Below, in pieces: positions 8,241 through 17,067 of a stretch of DNA of 49,535 nt. Both the position numbers and the translations under genes were made by a program. Source of the stretch: Pseudoxanthomonas beigongshangi (GTDB lineage Bacteria > Pseudomonadota > Gammaproteobacteria > Xanthomonadales > Xanthomonadaceae); NCBI RefSeq assembly GCF_016820515.1, contig NZ_JADHDV010000026.1, forward strand, positions 1 through 49,535, in the 5' to 3' direction. The stretch's first letter is position 1, and the number at the start of each line of letters is the position of its first letter. The notes under the pieces were generated by a model. The model searched no databases. It was given only the letters and a program-made list of their open reading frames with translations, and had not been told where the DNA came from.

Positions 8241-8309
8241 TGTGGGAGCGACGTGAGTCGCGATTGCGGTCGCCCGGTACATCCCGTCGCGACTCACGTC
8301 GCTCCCACA
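8241..8309. repeat. Inverted pair of GTGGGAG-type REP elements
   Basis: Two perfectly complementary 23-base arms (8241-8263 and 8287-8309) are separated by 23 bases. Each arm itself forms a small hairpin (GCGAC, GTGA loop, GTCGC) after the head TGTGGGAG. This is the structure of a REP doublet; TGTGGGAGCG heads are common in Pseudomonas and Xanthomonadaceae REPs. It lies between spoT and ridA, downstream of the GTAG element. Confidence 0.88.
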
Positions 8310-8380
8310 AGGGGATGGCGTGTACCGTGCCGGATTGCTGCCTCAGTTAAAATCCCCGCCTTTCCCGTCAGGAGCGCCCC

Positions 8381-8764
8381 ATGAGCAAGCAGATCATCCA
8401 CACGGAACAGGCGCCCGCCGCCATCGGCCCGTATTCGCAGGCGGTGCGCGCCGGCAACACCGTGTATTTCTCCGGGCAGATTCCGCTGGATCCGGCCACC
8501 GGCAACCTGGTCGAGGGCGACATCGAGGCGCAGGCGCGCCGCGCGTTCGATAATCTCAAGGCGGTGGCCGAGGCGGCCGGCGGTTCGCTGGGCGACGTCG
8601 TCCGCCTGGGCCTGTACCTGACCGACCTGGGCGAGTTCGCCAAGGTCAACGCGGTGATGCAGGACTACTTCCAGGCGCCGTTTCCGGCGCGCTCCACCAT
8701 TGAGGTAGCCGGCCTGCCCAAGGGCGCGGCGTTCGAGGTTGACGCGGTGATGGTGGTCGGCTGA
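8381..8764 (+). CDS. ridA: RidA family reactive enamine/imine deaminase
   Basis: The 127-aa product belongs to the YjgF/YER057c/UK114 family. It hydrolyses 2-aminoacrylate and related imines released by PLP enzymes, protecting them from damage. AIGPYSQAV near the N-terminus, the active-site arginine in PARSTIEV (R104) and the glutamate of the C-terminal AFEVDAVMV (E119) are all present, so it should be an active RidA. It follows spoT after the REP-containing gap. TTAAAAT at 8347-8353 could be its -10, but no -35 is clear. It converges with the AraC gene, only 27 bases apart. Confidence 0.94.
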
Positions 8765-8791
8765 CCGCCCGCCGTTGACCCCGGCGCGCGA

Positions 8792-9835
8792 TCACACCAT
8801 CCGATCGCGCGCCTCGCTGGGCGTGTGCCCGGTCCAGCGCTTGAATGCGCGGCGGAATTCGCGCACGTCGTTGAAGCCCAGTTGGGTGCCGATGTAGGCG
8901 ATGGTCAGTTCGCGATCCTGCAACAATTCCAGTGCGCGATCGGTGCGTACCCGGTCGTGGATATCGCTGAAGCGCTGGCCTTCGTCGGCCAATTGCCGGC
9001 GCAGGGTGCGCTCGCTGAGGTGCAGCGCGGTCGCGATCTCGGTCATCTGCGGATTTTCGCGCAGGCGTGGTCGCAGCTGTCGTTCCACCGCCGCGGTCGC
9101 CTCGCCCGAGGTCGCCACCGCCGCCAACTGCGCGTGGCACAGCGCCAGCACCTGCTGCGAGCCGACCGGGTTGTAGCTGGTGAATGGCAGCGAGAACCAG
9201 CTGCGATCCACCAGCATCCGGTTCTGGCCCTGGCGGAACCGCACCTCGCATTCGAACATCCGGCTGTATTTGCTGGCATAGGCCGGAGCGGGGTAGGTCA
9301 GATCCAGCCGCACCGGATGAAATTCCGGGCCGGCCAGTTCCCGCGCCAGCATCAGCACGCTGGAAAACATCTCCTCGCACAGGAACGGCAGGATCTCCGG
9401 CAGATCCAGCGGCGTGGTCGCCACCACCGACACCACTTCGGGATCTTCCTGCAGCAACTGCAGGTCCATCAGCGGCCCCAGGTTGCGCTGGTAGGTCAGG
9501 CCGATGTTGACCGCCTCGCCGAAGTTCGGCGCCATCCGCATCGCCAGGCCCAGCAGGCCGAAGTTGGCGCCGTTCTGGTTGCCGCCCAGGGTCAGGCCCA
9601 CGTCCTCGATGGGCAGGGTCGGCAGCGCGCGGCGGATGACCTCGGTCGCCTGCCGGTAGGAGACCCGTGCCAGCGGATCCTGGATCTCGCGCGGGGTCAG
9701 GCGGAGCCCGCTGAACCAGGACTCGCAGTTCACGCCCAACTCGCCCGCCAGCAGCACCAGGCTGCACAGCATGTTGGTCGGCAGGTTGGCGATGGACAGG
9801 CGATTGCCCCCGTCCAGGCCCAGTTTACGGCGCAT
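8792..9835 (-). CDS. AraC family transcriptional regulator (arabinose-binding-domain type)
   Basis: The 347-aa product has an N-terminal ligand-sensing domain of the Arabinose_bd type (roughly residues 15-205) and a C-terminal pair of helix-turn-helix motifs (ERTLRRQLADEGQRFSDI and IGTQLGFNDVREFRRAFKRWTGHTPSEAR), the standard AraC DNA-binding module. The ATG at 9835 is chosen because GGAGGGG lies just 6 bases upstream; an earlier in-frame start would only add 12 residues. It is divergent from the beta-helix/cytochrome/TonB receptor genes across 150 bases and is most likely their regulator. The ligand is unknown. Relatives with this sensor respond to amino acids, hydroxy acids or lipophilic compounds. 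Confidence 0.92.
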   Translation of the reverse strand: MRRKLGLDGGNRLSIANLPTNMLCSLVLLAGELGVNCESWFSGLRLTPREIQDPLARVSYRQATEVIRRALPTLPIEDVGLTLGGNQNGANFGLLGLAMRMAPNFGEAVNIGLTYQRNLGPLMDLQLLQEDPEVVSVVATTPLDLPEILPFLCEEMFSSVLMLARELAGPEFHPVRLDLTYPAPAYASKYSRMFECEVRFRQGQNRMLVDRSWFSLPFTSYNPVGSQQVLALCHAQLAAVATSGEATAAVERQLRPRLRENPQMTEIATALHLSERTLRRQLADEGQRFSDIHDRVRTDRALELLQDRELTIAYIGTQLGFNDVREFRRAFKRWTGHTPSEARDRMV

Positions 9836-9985
9836 CGAAGCCCCTCCAGCTTGTCCGCTTTGCCCCCCCAAGTATGCCGCTCCTGCCCTACTTCAGGGAA
9901 ACCAGTGGGACAAGACTCTCAATTACTGAATTCGCACGCGTATGGTGGCCGCCGGCCGCCGCGCGAGGACCGGGGAGGGAACGCG

Positions 9986-11215
9986 ATGCAGCGGACGATG
10001 TTGATGGCGGGTCTGGCACTGGCGCTGGCCGCCTGCCAGCCGAAGGGCGACGAACAGGCACCGAAGGCGGATGCGGCCAGCACGGACTTCGCCCGGCAAC
10101 TCCACGAGCGGCTGCTCGACGCCAAGCCCGGCGAGGTCATCGAGATTCCCGCCGGCACCTATCATTTCGATCGCAGCCTGACCCTGCGCGCGGACGGCGT
10201 GACGATCCGTGGTGCCGGCATGGACAAGACCGTGCTCAGCTTCAAGGGCCAGAAGGCCGGCGCCGAGGGCCTGCTGGTCAACGGCGACGACTTCGCCATC
10301 GAGAACCTGACCATCCAGGACTCCAAGGGCGATGGCCTGAAGATCAGCGAATCGGAGAACATCACCATTCGCGGGGTGAAGGTCGAATGGACCGGCGGTC
10401 CCAGCACCAAGAACGGTGCCTACGGGCTGTATCCGGTGCTGACGAAGAACGTGCTGATCGAGGATTCGGTATCCATCGGTGCCTCGGATGCCGGCATCTA
10501 CGTGGGCCAGTCCGACGGCGTCATCGTGCGTCGCAGCCGCGCCGAGAAGAACGTGGCGGGCATCGAGATCGAGAACACCATCAACGCCGACGTCCACGAC
10601 AACGTCGCCACCGGCAACACCGGCGGCATCCTGGTGTTCAACATGCCCGGGCTGAAGCAGCAGGGTGGCAACATCCGCGTGTTCAACAACAAGGTCATCG
10701 CCAACAACCACGAGAACTTCGGCGCCAAGGGCACGCCGGTGGCGAGCGTGCCGGCCGGTTCCGGCATCGTGGTCAATTCCAACGACGACATCGAGATCTT
10801 CGGCAACGAGATCCGCGACAACGCGACCACCAACATCATCATCTCCAGCGTCTACTCCACCGGCTACAAGGATTCGAGCAAGTCGGAAACCTTCGATCCG
10901 TATCCGGAGCGCATCTATGTGCATGGCAACACCCTGTCCGGCGGCGGTGATTCGCCCGACGGTTTCGATCTGAAGGCGCTGAAGGTGGCGATGTACGGGT
11001 TGCGCGGCAACTTCCCGGACGTGCTGTGGGATGGCTATTTCAACAAGGACCGCAAGGTCGATGGCCAGGCGCGTGGGCCGGAGATCTGCCTGCGTGACGT
11101 CAGCGGCGTGATCAACGCCGACGGCCCCGGCGGCTACAAGAGCCCGAGCAAGGACACCCGGTCCCATCAGTGCGAACTGCCGCGCCTGCCGGCGGTGGAC
11201 CTGAAGCGGGGTTGA
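9986..11215 (+). CDS. Parallel beta-helix repeat lipoprotein (TIGR03805-like)
   Basis: The 409-aa product has a lipoprotein signal peptide with lipobox LAAC at residues 14-17. The mature part begins with a pectate-lyase-like entry (KPGEVIEIPAGTYHF, then LTLRADGVTIRGAG), followed by repeated NLTIQDS, NITIRGV, DGVIVRRS and DIEIFGN rungs of a right-handed beta-helix. No catalytic residues of known polysaccharide lyases can be assigned. From memory, this matches a beta-helix family that occurs as a fixed two-gene pair with the diheme protein that follows; the function of the pair is not established. The ribosome binding site GGGGAGGGA is strong. Only 5 bases separate it from the next gene. It probably sits in the outer membrane, facing the periplasm or surface. 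Confidence 0.88.
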   Translation: MQRTMLMAGLALALAACQPKGDEQAPKADAASTDFARQLHERLLDAKPGEVIEIPAGTYHFDRSLTLRADGVTIRGAGMDKTVLSFKGQKAGAEGLLVNGDDFAIENLTIQDSKGDGLKISESENITIRGVKVEWTGGPSTKNGAYGLYPVLTKNVLIEDSVSIGASDAGIYVGQSDGVIVRRSRAEKNVAGIEIENTINADVHDNVATGNTGGILVFNMPGLKQQGGNIRVFNNKVIANNHENFGAKGTPVASVPAGSGIVVNSNDDIEIFGNEIRDNATTNIIISSVYSTGYKDSSKSETFDPYPERIYVHGNTLSGGGDSPDGFDLKALKVAMYGLRGNFPDVLWDGYFNKDRKVDGQARGPEICLRDVSGVINADGPGGYKSPSKDTRSHQCELPRLPAVDLKRG

Positions 11216-11220
11216 TCACG

Positions 11221-12408
11221 ATGCGGAAGTACCGGGCCGCATGGATGGCCATCGGCGCGCTGTTGGCCGCCGCGTTGATCACGAGCTGCAAGCGTCAGCA
11301 GGAAGTGACTTTCTTCGCCGAGGGCCAGCCGTCCAGCCTGGACGACTGGCACGTGCTGCGCATCGAGGACGGCCGGCTGCGCCTGAACGGCGGCGTCGTG
11401 CCCTACGATCTCAACACCCCGCTGTTCAGCGACTACGCGCACAAGCTGCGCACCATCTGGATGCCGAAGGGCAAGGCGGCGGCCTATCGGGCCGACGCCG
11501 CGTTCGACTTCCCGGTCGGCACCATCATCAGCAAGACCTTCTACTACCCGCTGCCGGAAGGACAGGCATGGGATGGCCGCTCGGTGGCGCGCACCCCGCC
11601 CTCGGCCAGCGTGTTGAAGCAGGAGTCGCTGGACCTGTCGAAGGTGCGCCTGATCGAAACCCGCCTGCTGGTGCGGCGCGAATCGGGCTGGGTGGCGATG
11701 CCGTACGTCTGGAACGAAGCCCAGACCGAAGCCACGCTCAAGCGCACCGGTGATCTGATCTCGCTGGAACTGGTCGACGCTTCCGGCAAGCGCGAGGAAG
11801 CGTCCTACCAGGTGCCCGACCAGAACCAGTGCGGCGGTTGCCACATGACCGACAACCGGTCGCGGCAGCTGTCGCCGATCGGGCCGAAGGCGCGTCATCT
11901 GAACCGGGATTTCGACTATGGCGATGGTCGCGAGAACCAGCTCGCGCACCTGGCCCGGATCGGCTACCTGACCGGCGCGCCCGCACCTGCGCAGGCACCG
12001 CGCGATGCCGATTGGATGGACACGAACGCCGGCCTCGACGCGCGCGCGCGCGCCTACCTGGACGTCAACTGCGGGCATTGCCACAGCCCGACCGGCCCGG
12101 CGATCACTTCCGGCCTGTGGCTGGACGCGGGCACCCGGGAACGCCTGAAGCTGGGTTTCTGCAAGCAGCCGATCGCCGCCGGCAAGGGCACTGGCGACCG
12201 GCGGCATGACATCGAGCCGGGCAAGCCGGACGAATCGATTCTCAGCTTCCGCATGGACAGCGCCGATCCGGCGGTGATGATGCCGGAACTGGGGCGCTCG
12301 GTGGTGCATCGCGAAGGCGTGGAACTGATTGATGCCTGGATTCGCGCGCAGCATGGCAGTTGCGATGGGGAGGCGCCGGGGGGAGAAGCGGTACCGGCGT
12401 CCATTTGA
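11221..12408 (+). CDS. SO2930-type diheme c-type cytochrome lipoprotein (TIGR03806-like)
   Basis: The 395-aa product begins with a lipoprotein signal (lipobox ITSC, cysteine 23). Two covalent heme motifs are visible: CGGCH at residues 204-208 and CGHCH at 284-288, the second inside DVNCGHCHSPTG. The first half (about 40-195) has no heme and contains the family block YDLNTPLFSDYAHKLRTIWMP. Methionines in AVMMPELG near residue 352 could be an axial ligand. This corresponds to the HNE_0200/SO2930 family named after Hyphomonas and Shewanella members, found next to the beta-helix lipoprotein. It is presumably periplasmic and electron-transferring. Partner and substrate are unknown. It needs the Ccm system for heme attachment, which is not in this window. 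Confidence 0.88.
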   Translation: MRKYRAAWMAIGALLAAALITSCKRQQEVTFFAEGQPSSLDDWHVLRIEDGRLRLNGGVVPYDLNTPLFSDYAHKLRTIWMPKGKAAAYRADAAFDFPVGTIISKTFYYPLPEGQAWDGRSVARTPPSASVLKQESLDLSKVRLIETRLLVRRESGWVAMPYVWNEAQTEATLKRTGDLISLELVDASGKREEASYQVPDQNQCGGCHMTDNRSRQLSPIGPKARHLNRDFDYGDGRENQLAHLARIGYLTGAPAPAQAPRDADWMDTNAGLDARARAYLDVNCGHCHSPTGPAITSGLWLDAGTRERLKLGFCKQPIAAGKGTGDRRHDIEPGKPDESILSFRMDSADPAVMMPELGRSVVHREGVELIDAWIRAQHGSCDGEAPGGEAVPASI

Positions 12409-12449
12409 GGGAAACATCCGTAGGAACACAACGCTTCTGGGAGGGAGTG

Positions 12450-14885
12450 ATGAAGTTGAATCAACGGTGTCTGGTGGTGGGGCTGCGGCGCGCCCTGTTC
12501 GGAAGCTGTGTGTTGCTGGGCGTGTCGGGTAGCGCATGGGGGCAGGCCGCCGCCGCGCCCGACGATGCGACCACGCTGGACACCATCAAGGTGACCGCGC
12601 AGAGCCGCGAGCAGGAACTGAAGGACGTGCCGATCGCGATCAACGTGCTCAACGGCGAGATGATCGACCAGGTCGCGGCCGCCGACATCGGCGACCTGGA
12701 CATGTTCGTGCCCGGCCTGGAGGTCAGCGACGGCAGTCCGACCCAGCCGCGCTACGCCATCCGCGGCATTTCCACCGGCGACTTCGGCATCGGCACCGAT
12801 CCGGCCGTGGGCGTCTATATCGACGGCGTTTATTCGGCCCGCACCGGCGGAGCGATGCTGGCGTTCAACGACATCGAGCGCATCGAAGTGCTGAAGGGGC
12901 CGCAGGGCACCCTGTTCGGCCGCAACAGCGCCGCCGGCGCGGTGTCCATCATCACCAACAAGCCGAGCAACGTGGCGGAAGGCAATGCCCGCATCCGGGT
13001 GGGCGAGGATGGTCGCCGCTATCTGTCCGGATTGTTCAACGTCCCCTTCGGGGAGCGTCACGCGCTGCGCTTCAGCGCACTGTCCAACCACAGCGACGGC
13101 TGGATGACCGATGCCGCGACCGGTGACCGGCTCAACCCCGAGGACACGATGGCGCTGCGCGCGGCCTGGCGTTCGGATCTGGGCGAGTCGACCACCCTCA
13201 ACCTGTCCTGGGACTACGAGAACATCGACCAGCTGGCGCGTCCGGCGGTCGGCCTGGTGGCGCTGGACCCGTATCCGGCCCCGGCTCCGTATCCCGCCAA
13301 TCCGCTGACCTATCGGAACCCGCTGAAGGCTCAGGTTTTCAACGACGTGGTCCACAACGAGGAATCACGCACCTTCAACGGCCTGACCCTGCAGATCGAC
13401 CACGCCTTCCCTTGGGGCAGCCTGCAGTCGACCACCGCCGTGCGTGATTTCGACACCGTGAACCGCGAAGACGAGGACGGCACCAACCGCATCAACCTCT
13501 ATTTCGACACCGCCAACATCGAGAGCAACCGCAGCTACTACCAGGAGTTCAAGTTCTCCGGCGTGTCCGGCAAGTTCGACTGGGTGGCCGGCGCCAGCTG
13601 GTTCAAGGAAGAGGCCGACCAGACCAGCGAGACCAACCTGTTCACCGACAGCGTGGGCACCGCGATGGGCAACCTGCCCAACTTTGGCGGCGTCAACATC
13701 ATCGCGCTGCTGGACCAGGTGCTGGAAGGCGCGGGCCTGCCGCTGCGCCTGCAGGGCCATTCGTGGCGCGAGAGCATGGTCAACCACGGAAAGGCGGAAG
13801 CCTACGCGGCGTTCGGCGATGTGATCTGGCACGTCAATGACCGCTGGAACCTGACCTTCGGCCTGCGCCTGACCCATGACCGCAAGGATTTCAGCTGGTT
13901 CAACGGCGCGCGCGAGGCGGCGACGCTGGATGCCACCGTGGCGATGCTGGATCAGCAGGGCTTCTTCGAGTTGCTGCAGCAGATGGGCTATCCGGTCAGC
14001 GCCGACATGTTCAACACGGACTTCGTGTTCGCCTTCGGCGAGTTGGAAGGCGTGAAGAACAGCCGCAAGAAGTCGTGGACCGACCTCAGCCCGCGTTTCG
14101 TCGTCGACTACGCGGTCAACGACAACACCATGGTGTTCGGCTCGCTGGCCAAGGGCTACAAGGCCGGCGGTTTCAACAGCGTGCAGCCGCAGTCGCAGTT
14201 CGACAACGAGGATGTCTGGAACGCGGAGTTCGGCATCAAGACCGTATTCCCGGAACAGAAGCTGTCACTCAACGCGTCCAGCTATTACTACATCTACAAG
14301 GATCGCCAGGCCATCAGCCTGGACCTGAACACCGCCGGCTCCGGCGTGCCGCGCTATATCGTCGACACCAGCGACATGCAGGCCTGGGGCGTGGACGTGG
14401 ACCTGCAGTGGCGGCCGGTCACCGGCCTGGACCTGACCTTCAATACCTCGTTCATCGACGCCACCTACAAGGATGGCCTGTCCACCAACGGCCGCGACAT
14501 TTCCGGCGATCCGACCGGCGAGCCTTACCTGTCGGCGTCGTTCGGCGCCGGCTATACCTGGAACCTGGGCGACGGCGGCGACGTGCGTTTTTCGCTGCTG
14601 CACGCCTACCGCGGCAAGAGCCGCTGCAACGCCGAGTCCGAAACCCAGGGCACCTGCCAGGCCAGCCCGGCGTTCCGCACCGGCGAGGCGCAGAACCGCA
14701 CCGACATGCGCGTGCAGTGGTCCTCGGCCGATGGCATGTGGGGCGTCGGCGTGTACGGCAACAACGTGTTCGACAAGCGCTACGTGACCGGGGTGAACAA
14801 CATTTCCGCCTCGGTGCTGGGCACGCCGTTCGCCTCGATCTCGGCCCCGCGCCAGGTCGGCGTGGAGTTCAGCGCCCGGTTCTGA
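12450..14885 (+). CDS. TonB-dependent outer-membrane receptor
   Basis: The 811-aa product has a signal peptide (residues 1 to about 31, ending AWGQ), then the TonB-box-like DTIKVTAQSREQ. A plug domain follows (about 45-165) with the conserved VGVYIDGVYSAR and IERIEVLKGPQGTLFGRNSAAGAV blocks, then a long barrel ending in a C-terminal phenylalanine. The plug motifs and barrel resemble the alphaproteobacterial/sphingomonad-type receptors often used for organic substrates as well as siderophores. Its substrate cannot be assigned. GGGAGGGAG precedes the ATG. It lies 41 bases after the diheme gene and is likely in one operon with it, so it is the uptake arm of the AraC-controlled system. Confidence 0.93.
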   Translation: MKLNQRCLVVGLRRALFGSCVLLGVSGSAWGQAAAAPDDATTLDTIKVTAQSREQELKDVPIAINVLNGEMIDQVAAADIGDLDMFVPGLEVSDGSPTQPRYAIRGISTGDFGIGTDPAVGVYIDGVYSARTGGAMLAFNDIERIEVLKGPQGTLFGRNSAAGAVSIITNKPSNVAEGNARIRVGEDGRRYLSGLFNVPFGERHALRFSALSNHSDGWMTDAATGDRLNPEDTMALRAAWRSDLGESTTLNLSWDYENIDQLARPAVGLVALDPYPAPAPYPANPLTYRNPLKAQVFNDVVHNEESRTFNGLTLQIDHAFPWGSLQSTTAVRDFDTVNREDEDGTNRINLYFDTANIESNRSYYQEFKFSGVSGKFDWVAGASWFKEEADQTSETNLFTDSVGTAMGNLPNFGGVNIIALLDQVLEGAGLPLRLQGHSWRESMVNHGKAEAYAAFGDVIWHVNDRWNLTFGLRLTHDRKDFSWFNGAREAATLDATVAMLDQQGFFELLQQMGYPVSADMFNTDFVFAFGELEGVKNSRKKSWTDLSPRFVVDYAVNDNTMVFGSLAKGYKAGGFNSVQPQSQFDNEDVWNAEFGIKTVFPEQKLSLNASSYYYIYKDRQAISLDLNTAGSGVPRYIVDTSDMQAWGVDVDLQWRPVTGLDLTFNTSFIDATYKDGLSTNGRDISGDPTGEPYLSASFGAGYTWNLGDGGDVRFSLLHAYRGKSRCNAESETQGTCQASPAFRTGEAQNRTDMRVQWSSADGMWGVGVYGNNVFDKRYVTGVNNISASVLGTPFASISAPRQVGVEFSARF

Positions 14886-14893
14886 TGACGGCG

Positions 14894-14922
14894 GGCGGTT
14901 CCGGCCGTGCGCCGGAACCGCC
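14894..14922 (+). terminator. Strong hairpin after the TonB receptor gene
   Basis: A perfect 12-bp stem (GGCGGTTCCGGC/GCCGGAACCGCC) with a 5-base loop lies 8 bases after the receptor stop codon and before recG. It lacks a T-run, so it may end the operon with help from Rho or protect the mRNA 3' end. Confidence 0.5.
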
Positions 14923-14964
14923 GCGGACTGGCAATCGCACCGCGATACCCGGCATGCTTGCACC

Positions 14965-17067
14965 ATGCCGCATGCCATTCCCGGGGCCGACGAGGTGGCC
15001 CGTCTTCCGATCGCGTCGCTGAAAGGCGTGGGCGCGCGCATCGCCGAAAAGCTGGCGGCGCGCGGCCTGCTGACCTTGCAGGATCTTTGGCTGCACCTGC
15101 CTCTGCGCTACGAGGATCGCACCGCGCTGACGCCGATCCGCGCGCTGCGCCCAGGCGTGCCCGCGCAGTTGGAGGGGCGGGTGGAGGCGGTCGAGCGCGG
15201 TTTCCGCTACCGGCCGGTGTTGCGGGTGGCGATCGGCGACGATTCGCATGCCACGGTGGTGCTGCGGTTCTTCCATTTCCGTGCGGCGCAGGTGGCGCAG
15301 TTCGCGCCGGGCACCCGGGTGCGCTGCTACGGCACGCCCAAGCCGGGCCAGCATGGCCTGGAGATCGTCCATCCCAGCTATCGCGTGCTCGACGCCGATG
15401 CCGAGATCGCCCTCGGCGAGGCGCTGGATCCCATCTATCCGGCCGTGGAAGGCGTGGGGCCGGCCAGCCTGCGCAAACTGGTCGGCCAGGCGCTGGATCG
15501 CCTGCCGGACGATGTCGCGCTGGAACTGCTGCCCACAGCCCTGCTGCGCGAATCCGGGCTACCGTCGCTGCGCGAGGCGCTGCTGGTCATGCACCGCCCG
15601 CCGCGCGACGCCGATCTGCAGGCCCTGTCGCTGGGGCGGCATCCGGCCCAGCGGCGGCTGGCGCTGGAGGAACTGCTGGCCCATCACGTCAGCCTGCGCC
15701 GCCAGCGCATCGCCCTGCAGCGCCATCACGCACCGGCGCTGACCGGGCGCGGCACCCTGGCCGCGCAACTGGCGAAATCGCTGCCGTTCCGCCTGACCGG
15801 CGCGCAGCAACGGGTGTTCAAGCAGATCCGCGAGGACCTGAAGCTGCCCTCGCCGATGCTGCGGCTGGTGCAGGGCGACGTCGGCAGCGGCAAGACCGTG
15901 GTCGCCGCGATGGCGGCGATGCTGGCGGTGGAAGCCGGCCGGCAGGCGGCGCTGGCCGCACCCACCGAACTGCTGGCCGAGCAGCATTTGGCCAACCTGC
16001 GGCAATGGCTGGAACCGTTGGGTATCCGGGTCGCGTGGCTGGCCGGCAAGGTCACCGGCAAGGCGCGCGCGCAGGTGCTGGACGAGGTCGCCACCGGCAA
16101 GGCCCAAGTGGTGGTGGGAACGCATGCACTGATGCAGGAAGCGGTGACCTTCAAGGACCTTGCCCTGGCCATCGTCGACGAGCAGCACCGCTTCGGCGTG
16201 CACCAGCGGCTGGCGCTGCGCGACAAGGGGGCCAGCGGGAAGTCGGTGCCGCATCAACTGGTCATGACCGCGACGCCCATCCCGCGCACGCTGGCGATGG
16301 CCGCCTACGCCGATCTCGATGTTTCGGCGATCGACGAACTGCCCCCCGGCCGCACGCCCGTGCATACCGTCGCCTTCAGCGCCGAGCGCCGTCCCGAACT
16401 GGTCGAGCGCATCCGCGCCGCCTGCGCCGAGGGGCGCCAGGCGTACTGGGTGTGCACATTGATCGACGACAGCGACGAGGTGATCGCGCAGGCCGCGCAG
16501 ACCACCTACGAACAGCTCTCCGCCGCCCTGCCGGAACTGCGCATCGCGCTCGTCCACGGACGCATGAAGGCGGCGGAGAAACAGGCGGCGATGCGTGCGT
16601 TCAAGCAGGGCGAGAGCGATCTGCTGGTCGCGACCACCGTGATTGAGGTCGGCGTGGACGTACCCAACGCCTCGCTGATGATCATCGAGAACGCCGAGCG
16701 CCTCGGCCTGGCGCAGCTGCACCAGTTGCGCGGGCGGGTCGGGCGCGGCGCGGCCGCCTCGACCTGCGTGCTGATGTACCAGGCGCCGCTCTCGCAGATG
16801 GCCAAGCAACGCCTGGCGACCATGCGCGAGACCAACGACGGTTTCGTCATCGCCGAGAAGGATCTGGAACTGCGCGGCCCCGGCGAACTGCTAGGCACGC
16901 GGCAGACCGGCCTGGCGACGTTCCGGGTCGCGGATCTGGCGCGCGACGCGGCACTGCTGCCGCAGGTGCGCGAGATGGCCGATCGCCTGCTGGCCGAATC
17001 GCCGGCGCTGGCCGACCGCATCGTTCAGCGCTGGGTGGGCGGGGCGGTCCGCTACGCGGGTGCCTGA
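14965..17067 (+). CDS. recG: ATP-dependent DNA helicase RecG
   Basis: The 700-aa product unwinds branched DNA at stalled forks. The N-terminal wedge domain (1 to about 270) starts SLKGVGARIAEKL. The helicase core shows Walker A GDVGSGKT at 304-311, the DEQH box at 405-408, TATPIPRT at 435-442 and the C-terminal LHQLRGRVGRG. Length is normal. In related genomes recG commonly lies next to ridA and spoT; here a 6-kb accessory block separates them. The ATG at 14965 has little Shine-Dalgarno. Confidence 0.97.
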   Translation: MPHAIPGADEVARLPIASLKGVGARIAEKLAARGLLTLQDLWLHLPLRYEDRTALTPIRALRPGVPAQLEGRVEAVERGFRYRPVLRVAIGDDSHATVVLRFFHFRAAQVAQFAPGTRVRCYGTPKPGQHGLEIVHPSYRVLDADAEIALGEALDPIYPAVEGVGPASLRKLVGQALDRLPDDVALELLPTALLRESGLPSLREALLVMHRPPRDADLQALSLGRHPAQRRLALEELLAHHVSLRRQRIALQRHHAPALTGRGTLAAQLAKSLPFRLTGAQQRVFKQIREDLKLPSPMLRLVQGDVGSGKTVVAAMAAMLAVEAGRQAALAAPTELLAEQHLANLRQWLEPLGIRVAWLAGKVTGKARAQVLDEVATGKAQVVVGTHALMQEAVTFKDLALAIVDEQHRFGVHQRLALRDKGASGKSVPHQLVMTATPIPRTLAMAAYADLDVSAIDELPPGRTPVHTVAFSAERRPELVERIRAACAEGRQAYWVCTLIDDSDEVIAQAAQTTYEQLSAALPELRIALVHGRMKAAEKQAAMRAFKQGESDLLVATTVIEVGVDVPNASLMIIENAERLGLAQLHQLRGRVGRGAAASTCVLMYQAPLSQMAKQRLATMRETNDGFVIAEKDLELRGPGELLGTRQTGLATFRVADLARDAALLPQVREMADRLLAESPALADRIVQRWVGGAVRYAGA

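Follow-up and report, generated by a model that had tools for sequence, protein, structure and literature searches.

Recognition of the N-terminal half of the diheme lipoprotein DH as a P460-like heme domain is new here, having been missed in a preliminary description of the same DNA. The DH gene lies in a four-gene cassette of Pseudoxanthomonas beigongshangi, together with the genes of a parallel beta-helix lipoprotein (BH), a TonB-dependent receptor and a divergent AraC-family regulator. We tentatively favor the reading that this cassette encodes a heme-dependent oxidoreductase of the cell envelope, with the beta-helix as its platform, coupled to TonB import and switched by AraC. Throughout, the window is the whole stretch of DNA that was analyzed, 49,535 nucleotides in length.

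Results

A conserved four-gene cassette at a fixed site

The preliminary description had proposed that four adjacent genes form a self-contained unit, and all four were found where it had placed them, with intergenic gaps of 5 and 41 bases. The features of the cassette and its flanks are as follows.

8381..8764, + strand: ridA, left flank, outside the system (TIGR00004, 170.8 bits)
8792..9835, − strand: AraC-family regulator, divergent from the BH-DH-receptor operon; PF12625 N-terminal (129.6 bits) and HTH_18 C-terminal (68.7 bits), both above gathering score
9851..9889, + strand: conserved block of 39 bases within the AraC-BH intergenic gap; candidate AraC operator with tandem half-sites
9986..11215, + strand: BH, parallel beta-helix lipoprotein (TIGR03805, 433.7 bits, cut-off 141.5), lipobox Cys17
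10412..10813, + strand: five BH coils with constant residues (BH residues 143-276)
11221..12408, + strand: DH, diheme c-type lipoprotein (TIGR03806, 398.2 bits, cut-off 313.3), lipobox Cys23
11320..11961, + strand: heme 1 domain, resembling cytochrome P460 / c'-beta (DH residues 34-247; C204, C207, H208)
11449-11451, + strand: DH R77, aligns with the P460 distal arginine
11533-11535, + strand: DH K105, aligns with the P460 cross-link lysine
11830-11844, + strand: first DH CxxCH (heme 1)
12070..12084, + strand: second DH heme motif, CGHCH (residues 284-288)
12450..14885, + strand: TonB-dependent receptor, exchangeable cassette part (barrel PF00593, 98.9 bits; Plug PF07715, 70.4 bits; both above gathering scores)
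14965..17067, + strand: recG, right flank, outside the system (RecG model NF008163, 1092 bits)

These matches uphold the earlier assignment to TIGR03805 and TIGR03806, as well as the lipobox cysteines, the two CxxCH motifs and the plug that had been read directly from the sequence.

Within the window's family, the Xanthomonadaceae, 33 of the 149 genomes searched were BH-positive, and in all 33 the AraC, BH, DH and receptor genes have identical order and orientation. This conservation shows an association beyond chance, and the four genes are a conserved, movable unit. The cassette lies between ridA and recG in 31 of the 33 genomes, and ridA and recG abut directly in 21 of 30 inspected ridA loci (the closest of 147 matches).

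A wider set comprised the best 80 of 578 candidate loci, ranked by likeness to locus L086. Co-occurrence of all four genes, which holds for every family cassette, does not extend to this set as a whole: a receptor like that of the window is present in only 19 of these best 80 loci and an AraC orthologue in 16, and where the set covers Pseudomonas, Microbulbifer and Caulobacter, the BH-DH pair occurs without either. A second set of 33 further loci consisted of 30 of 44 over-cut-off genomes, picked for diversity, and 3 others; of the remainder of the 44, 11 were left out and 3 were counted in the family set. In marine loci, HupE/PPIase genes occur upstream of BH-DH, which we considered as a hint of a metal.

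BH and DH form a recurrent pair

In the best 80 of the 578 loci, the DH reading frame lies directly 3' of BH in 76, and the contigs of the other four end there. DH adjoins or is fused with BH in 27 of the 33 further loci, and a MauG-type diheme gene is found in the other 6. We also aligned 86 BH-DH fusions, of 120 fusion matches listed; Halioglobus maricola is one species with a natural fusion. Besides being encoded side by side, the two proteins show parallel divergence, and other species have them as one fused protein; the earlier statement that their families recur as a pair proved correct. The identity correlations behind the parallel divergence were computed on pairs that are not independent and serve as description only. 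Mutual information across the 86 fusions (effective number 48) placed 147 inter-domain pairs in the top 400, which is not raised over the 45% of all pairs that are inter-domain.

One BH branch has, by homology, a CCP/MauG-type diheme gene in DH's place in 6 of 6 loci; two of these neighbors were confirmed by Pfam, and a two-domain cytochrome c lies beside the MauG-type gene in four loci. Among 10 other proteins tested, 9 have a GSDH propeller (PF07995) in front of a DH-like domain, which falls below the TIGR03806 cut-off and keeps the R77 and K105 positions.

The first half of DH resembles cytochrome P460

Exactly two CxxCH motifs occur in 75 of 75 aligned DH rows and a lipobox-like pattern in 73 of 75 (the alignment kept 74 of 76 DHs, leaving out L192, which is split in two reading frames, and the overlong L218). 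The preliminary description of DH as a diheme cytochrome therefore stands as far as it went; it did not capture that heme 1 is predicted to sit in a P460 / c'-beta-like fold. The AlphaFold model of DH has a pLDDT of 90.0 and a pTM of 0.88, and when it was aligned to the 997 PDB chains ranked highest by Foldseek, the 13 best structural matches were all P460 or c'-beta proteins. Profile comparison with hhalign, using P460 sequences (32 matches, 19 tried, 16 usable), scored above 100 shuffles and 6 unrelated families and paired DH R77 and K105 with the P460 arginine and lysine. Both residues are present in 182 of 182 aligned rows. Their spacing would tie them to Arg50, Pro71 and Lys78 of McP460, as given in passages of PMC6427953; the same passages describe the lysine cross-link to heme and the distal arginine of P460, hydroxylamine oxidation by P460 enzymes and nitric oxide binding by c'-beta proteins.

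A Pfam scan assigned no family to the first half of DH, and the one DH relative shown scored 12.3 bits against PF16694, below the gathering score of 27, so that DH is not filed as a P460 member. Sequence searches of solved structures returned only weak cytochrome c matches for the DH profile and one weak match for the BH profile; of the two single sequences, one gave a lone chance-like match and the other none. Another P460-family gene is present elsewhere in the window's own genome.

In the second half of DH, residues C284, C287, H288 and M354 are constant in 75 of 75 rows. M354 (12280-12282) is likely the sixth ligand of heme 2, which would make it a His/Met heme. For heme 1, the modeled P460 / c'-beta-like fold and the retained P460 lysine and arginine positions point to a catalytic role rather than merely that of an electron wire.

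Constant residues of the beta-helix

The BH alignment kept 79 of 79 BHs; C17 is present in 80 of 80 aligned rows and a lipobox-like pattern in 77. In the five conserved coils, residues Y146, D168, Y172, E194, E196, N197, N206, N211, N240, N241 and N244 are invariant across an alignment of 172 BHs, among them the 6 of the MauG branch, with one exception at N206. Judging from the coil pattern, these residues probably lie on one face of the helix. BH also resembles NosD (37.4 bits).

Two candidate features of BH were considered and rejected. Single and fused BHs all have Trp135 (166 of 166), but it is unaligned in the 6 MauG-type BHs; for this reason Trp-to-kynurenine maturation was demoted from a common theme to a rival explanation. 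As for PQQ as a BH cofactor, 30 of the 33 family genomes with the cassette, among them the window's own, lack pqqC, and PQQ made by the host itself is therefore unlikely. Import of PQQ would be compatible with the absence of pqqC.

The receptor has been exchanged

The receptor scored 130.8 bits against the TonB siderophore receptor model TIGR01783, below its cut-off of 223.5. Its tree conflicts with those of BH and DH (trees and identity tables exclude L106, which is nearly identical to the window; a receptor group of eight loci was defined by BH identity once the identity tables had been seen, ahead of the trees). By this phylogeny, the receptor is the part that was exchanged while BH and DH stayed together. 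Its earlier inclusion in the unit holds for the Xanthomonadaceae, most Rhodanobacteraceae loci and three alphaproteobacterial loci, and not generally, as the wider set shows. In Rhodanobacteraceae, an aldehyde dehydrogenase gene lies 3' of the receptor.

The 41-base gap between DH and the receptor leaves little room for a separate promoter. Within DH, positions 12254-12281 weakly match a promoter-like pattern (9 of 12 letters, 0.5 expected).

A candidate operator for the AraC regulator

The AraC reading frame spans 8792-9871 on the minus strand and is open from a TTG at 9871; its likely start is the ATG at 9835. An orthologue is present in 33 of 33 family cassettes. The 39-base block in the AraC/BH gap contains two CCGCT-N1/2-TGCCC half-sites, 22 bases apart, and is kept amid diverged flanks in 7 aligned loci. 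Its best match falls at the same place in 33 of 33 family loci, with 0-15 mismatches. Conservation of this block supports AraC control through a candidate operator, in agreement with the local regulation proposed earlier. A regulon search of the window's own genome at up to 3 mismatches found no site besides the cassette's own block, and a literature search on the motif returned irrelevant matches only.

Discussion

In the mechanism that we tentatively favor, BH and DH, lipoproteins by sequence, would be sorted to the outer membrane. Their adjacency, parallel divergence and fusion in other species suggest that they act as one enzyme. The substrate would be presented on the conserved part of the BH helix, near Glu194/Glu196, Tyr146/Tyr172 and Asp168, and heme 1, whose modeled pocket resembles that of P460 and keeps the positions of Arg77 and Lys105, could carry out oxidation or other small-molecule chemistry. 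A Lys-heme cross-link in DH is predicted from the modeled fold and the residues seen. Heme 2, with His288 and Met354, would hand electrons to periplasmic cytochromes, and the TonB receptor would import product or substrate. The divergent AraC protein would sense one of these and activate the BH-DH-receptor operon via one tandem operator. The aldehyde dehydrogenase that follows the receptor suggests an organic, aldehyde-yielding substrate in Rhodanobacteraceae.

A rather unlikely alternative is that DH is a mere electron acceptor with a non-catalytic heme 1, and that BH is catalytic like the GSDH propeller of the fusions. The fusions themselves, the two-domain cytochrome c adjoining four MauG-type genes and the constant acidic and aromatic BH residues favor this arrangement. 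However, it does not account for a P460-like fold around heme 1 with its arginine and lysine positions kept in every row; home-made PQQ is also unlikely, and to our knowledge no beta-helix with a redox cofactor has been described.

DH, or MauG in its place, could instead be a maturation enzyme that oxidizes BH residues to yield a metal-binding BH for metal uptake, as in MbnP-MbnH-MbnT. We consider this unlikely. It would fit the MauG-type neighbors of one BH branch, the TonB receptor alongside 5 of those 6 loci and the likeness of BH to NosD, and MbnP and MbnH are described in passages of PMC3621798 as recurring in pairs, isolated pairs lying near MbnT-like receptors. The best NCBIfam model for the MauG-type gene of L097 is the MbnH family (TIGR04039), but the score of 223.8 bits is below the cut-off of 362.85. 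Moreover, Trp135 is unaligned in this very branch, neither MbnP nor a copper gene was found among the scanned neighbors, and the GSDH fusions do not fit. The cassette does share with MbnP-MbnH-MbnT a partner protein, a diheme enzyme and a TonB receptor; its partner, however, is an unrelated beta-helix and its diheme protein is P460-like rather than MauG-like. No methanobactin gene was found among the scanned neighbors.

The fold match and the chemistry described for those families in passages of PMC6427953 would also fit a detoxifying role, in which the P460-like heme removes hydroxylamine or nitric oxide and BH and the receptor are accessories. We regard it as improbable because it leaves BH, AraC and the receptor unexplained, and the genome has a further P460-family gene outside the cassette.

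It is very improbable that the cassette encodes a terminal reductase of extracellular electron transfer, the role supposed for Shewanella SO_2931. Shewanella papers, in the passages on these genes, count SO_2930 and SO_2931 among outer-membrane cytochromes (for the placement of SO_2931, PMC5357785 and PMC12175506), list SO_2931 among the genes deleted in a strain without outer-membrane multiheme cytochromes and, in one transcriptome paper (PMC5955497), assign it to Fe/Mn oxide reduction. Those passages hold no test of SO_2931 alone, and a study of DTNB names it, in the part concerned, merely as a possible source of residual activity. The window's pair is of this SO_2930/SO_2931 type, with both proteins above the family cut-offs and the same recurrent pairing and fusion, and from gene order SO_2931 is probably itself a BH-DH fusion. 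The window's cassette differs by its fixed site and by two further genes, one for a TonB receptor and one, divergent, for an AraC protein of PF12625 type; in the Shewanella-type locus L079, a BH-DH fusion precedes a second DH, the 20 kb covered contain no receptor match, and the AraC-type gene is distant (26% identity). Cassette hosts, which we take to be mostly aerobes without Mtr systems, also speak against a terminal reductase.

Finally, that only BH and DH form the system and the receptor is an unrelated neighbor agrees with the conflicting receptor phylogeny and with the 61 of the best 80 of 578 loci that lack a window-type receptor after DH, yet it has very little probability given a receptor 3' of DH in all 33 family cassettes, in 3 alphaproteobacterial loci and beside 5 of 6 MauG-type loci.

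DH resembles cytochrome P460 in the modeled fold of residues 34-247 and in having a lysine and an arginine where P460 has its cross-link and distal residues. It differs in being a diheme lipoprotein, in its extra cytochrome c domain and in its beta-helix partner, and it falls outside PF16694. The GSDH fusions, of the PQQ sugar dehydrogenase type, have a related C-terminal diheme domain on a propeller rather than a beta-helix, and pqqC is absent from most cassette genomes. One Burkholderia table, in the part concerned, names TIGR03805, and among the matches listed, open-licence PMC full-text passages contain no P460 assignment for TIGR03805 or TIGR03806.

TIGR03805 and TIGR03806 have so far been a pair without established function. 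P460-type absorbance lies at about 460 nm, and a P460-like fold that retains both the cross-link lysine and the distal arginine offers a spectral test and testable chemistry. Through the single candidate operator, the inducing substrate could be sought. It is possible, though doubtful, that TIGR03806 is an unrecognized P460 enzyme class, in which an outer-membrane-anchored, Lys-cross-linked catalytic heme and an electron-transfer heme form an interchangeable redox head on a beta-helix or PQQ-type propeller, plugged in Xanthomonadaceae into swappable TonB receptors. The cassette is a clean case of a constant redox pair with an exchanged receptor; if this class exists, swappable receptors would let different Xanthomonadaceae lineages oxidize and import different molecules.

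Content and genomic site of the cassette

Translation and family scans bore out the four genes of the preliminary description, which are arranged as follows:

8792–9835, − strand: AraC regulator with PF12625 and HTH_18 domains
9986–11215, + strand: parallel beta-helix lipoprotein, TIGR03805 (BH)
11221–12408, + strand: diheme lipoprotein, TIGR03806 (DH)
12450 (start), downstream of DH: TonB receptor

To the left of the cassette lie spoT and ridA, and to its right recG. Inspection by eye showed a palindromic, repeat-like element at window ~8246–8311, between the two left-hand genes; it is probably a REP-type repeat.

The TIGR03805 cut-off was passed in 33 of the 149 genomes of the window's family. 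All 33 kept the order divergent AraC, BH, DH and receptor, so the claim of a self-contained unit with conserved co-occurrence holds in this family. The cassette lies in one locus flanked by ridA and recG in 31 of them, while in genomes G008 (locus L115) and G010 (L116) these genes are not close to it. Of 147 ridA matches, the 30 closest loci were inspected: in 21, ridA and recG are separated by 13 to 90 bases, measured between alignment ends, with no cassette between them; eight had the cassette, and one, in genome G054, had neither arrangement. Occupied and empty sites, together with the intact order in 33/33 genomes, show that the four genes are gained or lost as a set in the family. In G054, ridA and recG lie ~6 kb apart with large membrane-protein-like ORFs in between (L262, 2825–7679), and the search of the 149 family genomes gave no TIGR03805 match there.

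A conserved 39-base block lies in the 150-base gap that separates the AraC ATG from BH; it contains two half-sites, CCGCT-N1/2-TGCCC, spaced 22 bases apart. In each of the 33 family loci the best match to this block fell at the corresponding position, with 0 to 15 mismatches, some of which stem from a one-base shift. T(A/G)TGCCG is kept in 32 of these loci, the other (L228) having TATGCCT. Several Rhodanobacteraceae loci carry a related half-site pair; others are without a clear match. At three or fewer mismatches, the window's own genome held no site besides the cassette's own. A consensus scan of 8600–15100 returned a single promoter-like site, at 12254–12281 inside DH, against 0.5 expected, and a single terminator-like site against 4.4 expected.

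Phylogeny of the receptor

In 32 loci of the family, identity in BH tracks identity in DH (Spearman 0.78). Receptor identity bears little relation to BH (0.21) or DH (0.19), and shows some correlation with RecG (0.45). The BHs of the eight Pseudoxanthomonas-group loci form one clade (99/95) and their DHs a weakly supported one (85/66), and their receptors are spread over four places in the tree; a single receptor clade was rejected (AU p about 1e-44). The window receptor is 97% identical to one from Pseudoxanthomonas sp. PXM04, which makes Pseudoxanthomonas the probable source of the window. When the window's own genome was queried with the receptor of locus L107, the sole match at E 1e-60 was its own cassette receptor, at 51% identity.

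BH and diheme partners beyond the family

Beyond the family, the proposed co-occurrence was general for the BH-DH pair and not for the other two genes. Among the best 80 of 578 candidate loci, a DH ORF adjoins BH in 76 (split in L192, overlong in L218); in the remaining four the contig ends beside BH, with a DH fragment visible in two. An AraC orthologue (45% or more identity) was found in 16 of the 80, and a receptor at least 47% identical to the window's lies 3' of DH in 19, from Xanthomonadaceae, Rhodanobacteraceae and three alphaproteobacterial loci (L153, L158, L160). Two further loci have a 29% identical receptor near by. In the alphaproteobacterial three, DH and receptor are separated by an opposite-strand gene whose copies belong to a single homologous cluster; on visual inspection, the L153 copy resembles a TetR regulator. 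A small gene 3' of DH in L125 (9055–9498), L157, L162 and L170 has a seemingly secreted product, and the L125 protein matched no Pfam family.

In a further set of 33 loci (30 of 44 over-cut-off genomes plus three from another search), DH was beside or fused to BH in 27 and a CCP/MauG-type gene took its place in six; none of the 33 lacked a diheme partner. Fused BH-DH proteins occur frequently, many of them in Shewanella; of 120 listed, 86 were aligned. Both the pairing and the fusion are reportedly recorded in the TIGRFAM notes. In a Shewanella-type genome the fusion gene has an additional, separate DH gene after it (L079, 9323–13266), 36% identical to the window's DH. As a counter-case, the available passage of one paper reports a TIGR03805-predicted protein in a Burkholderia cenocepacia exopolysaccharide cluster (PMC3584217).

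The six deviant BHs (about 500–525 aa; L097, L098, L264–L267) are each directly preceded by a MauG-type diheme gene, assigned by homology to L097's and confirmed by Pfam in L097 and L098. For the L097 protein, MbnH was the best NCBIfam model, with a score below cut-off. A two-domain cytochrome c adjoins the MauG-type gene in four of the six (Pfam); L267 has a gene of that size there and L098 none. An AraC gene is present in four loci, identified by Pfam in L097 and L264 and by 43–57% identity to these in L266 and L267. Five of the six loci have a TonB receptor. The same functional classes have therefore come together twice, with different proteins.

Substrate hints and the Shewanella literature

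The preliminary reading as a whole, in which the receptor imports a substrate that BH binds and DH oxidises or reduces, was partly supported; this mechanism is one that we infer. An aldehyde dehydrogenase gene lies 3' of the receptor in eight Rhodanobacteraceae loci (L193's is PF00171, the other seven 69–74% identical to it), and in G008 a 47%-identical one fills the ridA-recG gap (L263, 2454–3878), the cassette being on another contig. These neighbors hint that an aldehyde occurs somewhere in the pathway. HupE/UreJ_2- and PPIC-type PPIase genes lie directly upstream of BH-DH in five to six marine gammaproteobacterial loci (for example L192, 8140–9955), with one representative of each cluster scanned.

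In the passages available, three papers count SO_2931 among outer-membrane cytochromes (PMC4837345, PMC5357785, PMC12175506), and one of them also SO_2930 (PMC4837345). A strain with multiple gene deletions, SO2931 among them, was used for cathode current (PMC5829830). SO2931 has also been named, speculatively, as a candidate for the residual reduction of DTNB (PMC10986466), and a transcriptome paper reports it as up by 1.20 and assigns it to Fe/Mn oxides (PMC5955497). These passages on SO_2931 contain neither a direct test of it alone nor a P460 assignment. For S. algae C6G3, the corresponding passage reports only an SO1659 homologue, not SO2931 (PMC5357785); a Shewanella algae cluster carries a BH-DH fusion (P0036) 76% identical to L079's.

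Conserved residues of BH and DH

Across 172 BH rows (80 single, 86 fused, six MauG-type), the polar and aromatic residues Y146, D168, Y172, E194, E196, N197, N211, N240, N241 and N244 are constant, and N206 has one exception. They fall on successive coils (G-(I/L)-Y / G-I-Y / G-I-E-I-E-N / G-I-L-V-F) and would form one strand face if the helix is right-handed. Pectate-lyase-like enzymes keep their sites on such a face, and these residues may constitute a substrate or metal site.

In the cytochrome McP460, Lys78 bonds the heme, Arg50 lies above it and Pro71 is among the named conserved residues, according to the available text (PMC6427953). DH residues R77, P98 and K105 have the same spacings (21 and 7) and are constant in every one of 182 aligned rows, of which 75 are separate DHs, 86 fused ones and 21 distant or GSDH-type; from hhalign and spacing, R77 would correspond to Arg50 and K105 to Lys78. 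Since the M. capsulatus c'-beta has Phe in place of this lysine (PMC6427953, same text), DH would side with P460 here. The spaced Arg-Pro-Lys motif occurs in 180 of 182 DH rows, 5 of 16 P460-family rows and none of 208 rows of five other families. Because DH does not reach the Pfam P460 model, we call it P460-like, not P460. The window's own genome has another P460-family gene (L274, G000:C34:70641-71012; 126 bits to PF16694). The heme 2 domain has a constant Met354 within an MPE motif, as in class I cytochromes.

In nine of ten further proteins with a TIGR03806-like domain, a GSDH propeller (PF07995) occupies the N-terminal part, and in one the domain stands alone; six GSDH-type diheme domains scored 233–281 bits in an NCBIfam scan, below the TIGR03806 cut-off of 313.3. 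Its position behind these propellers suggests that the DH-like domain serves different platforms as a redox head. Of the 33 family genomes with the cassette, 3 have pqqC; it was not found in the window's own genome. The heme protein of the cassette, DH, gains a new and testable identity, as a P460-like protein.
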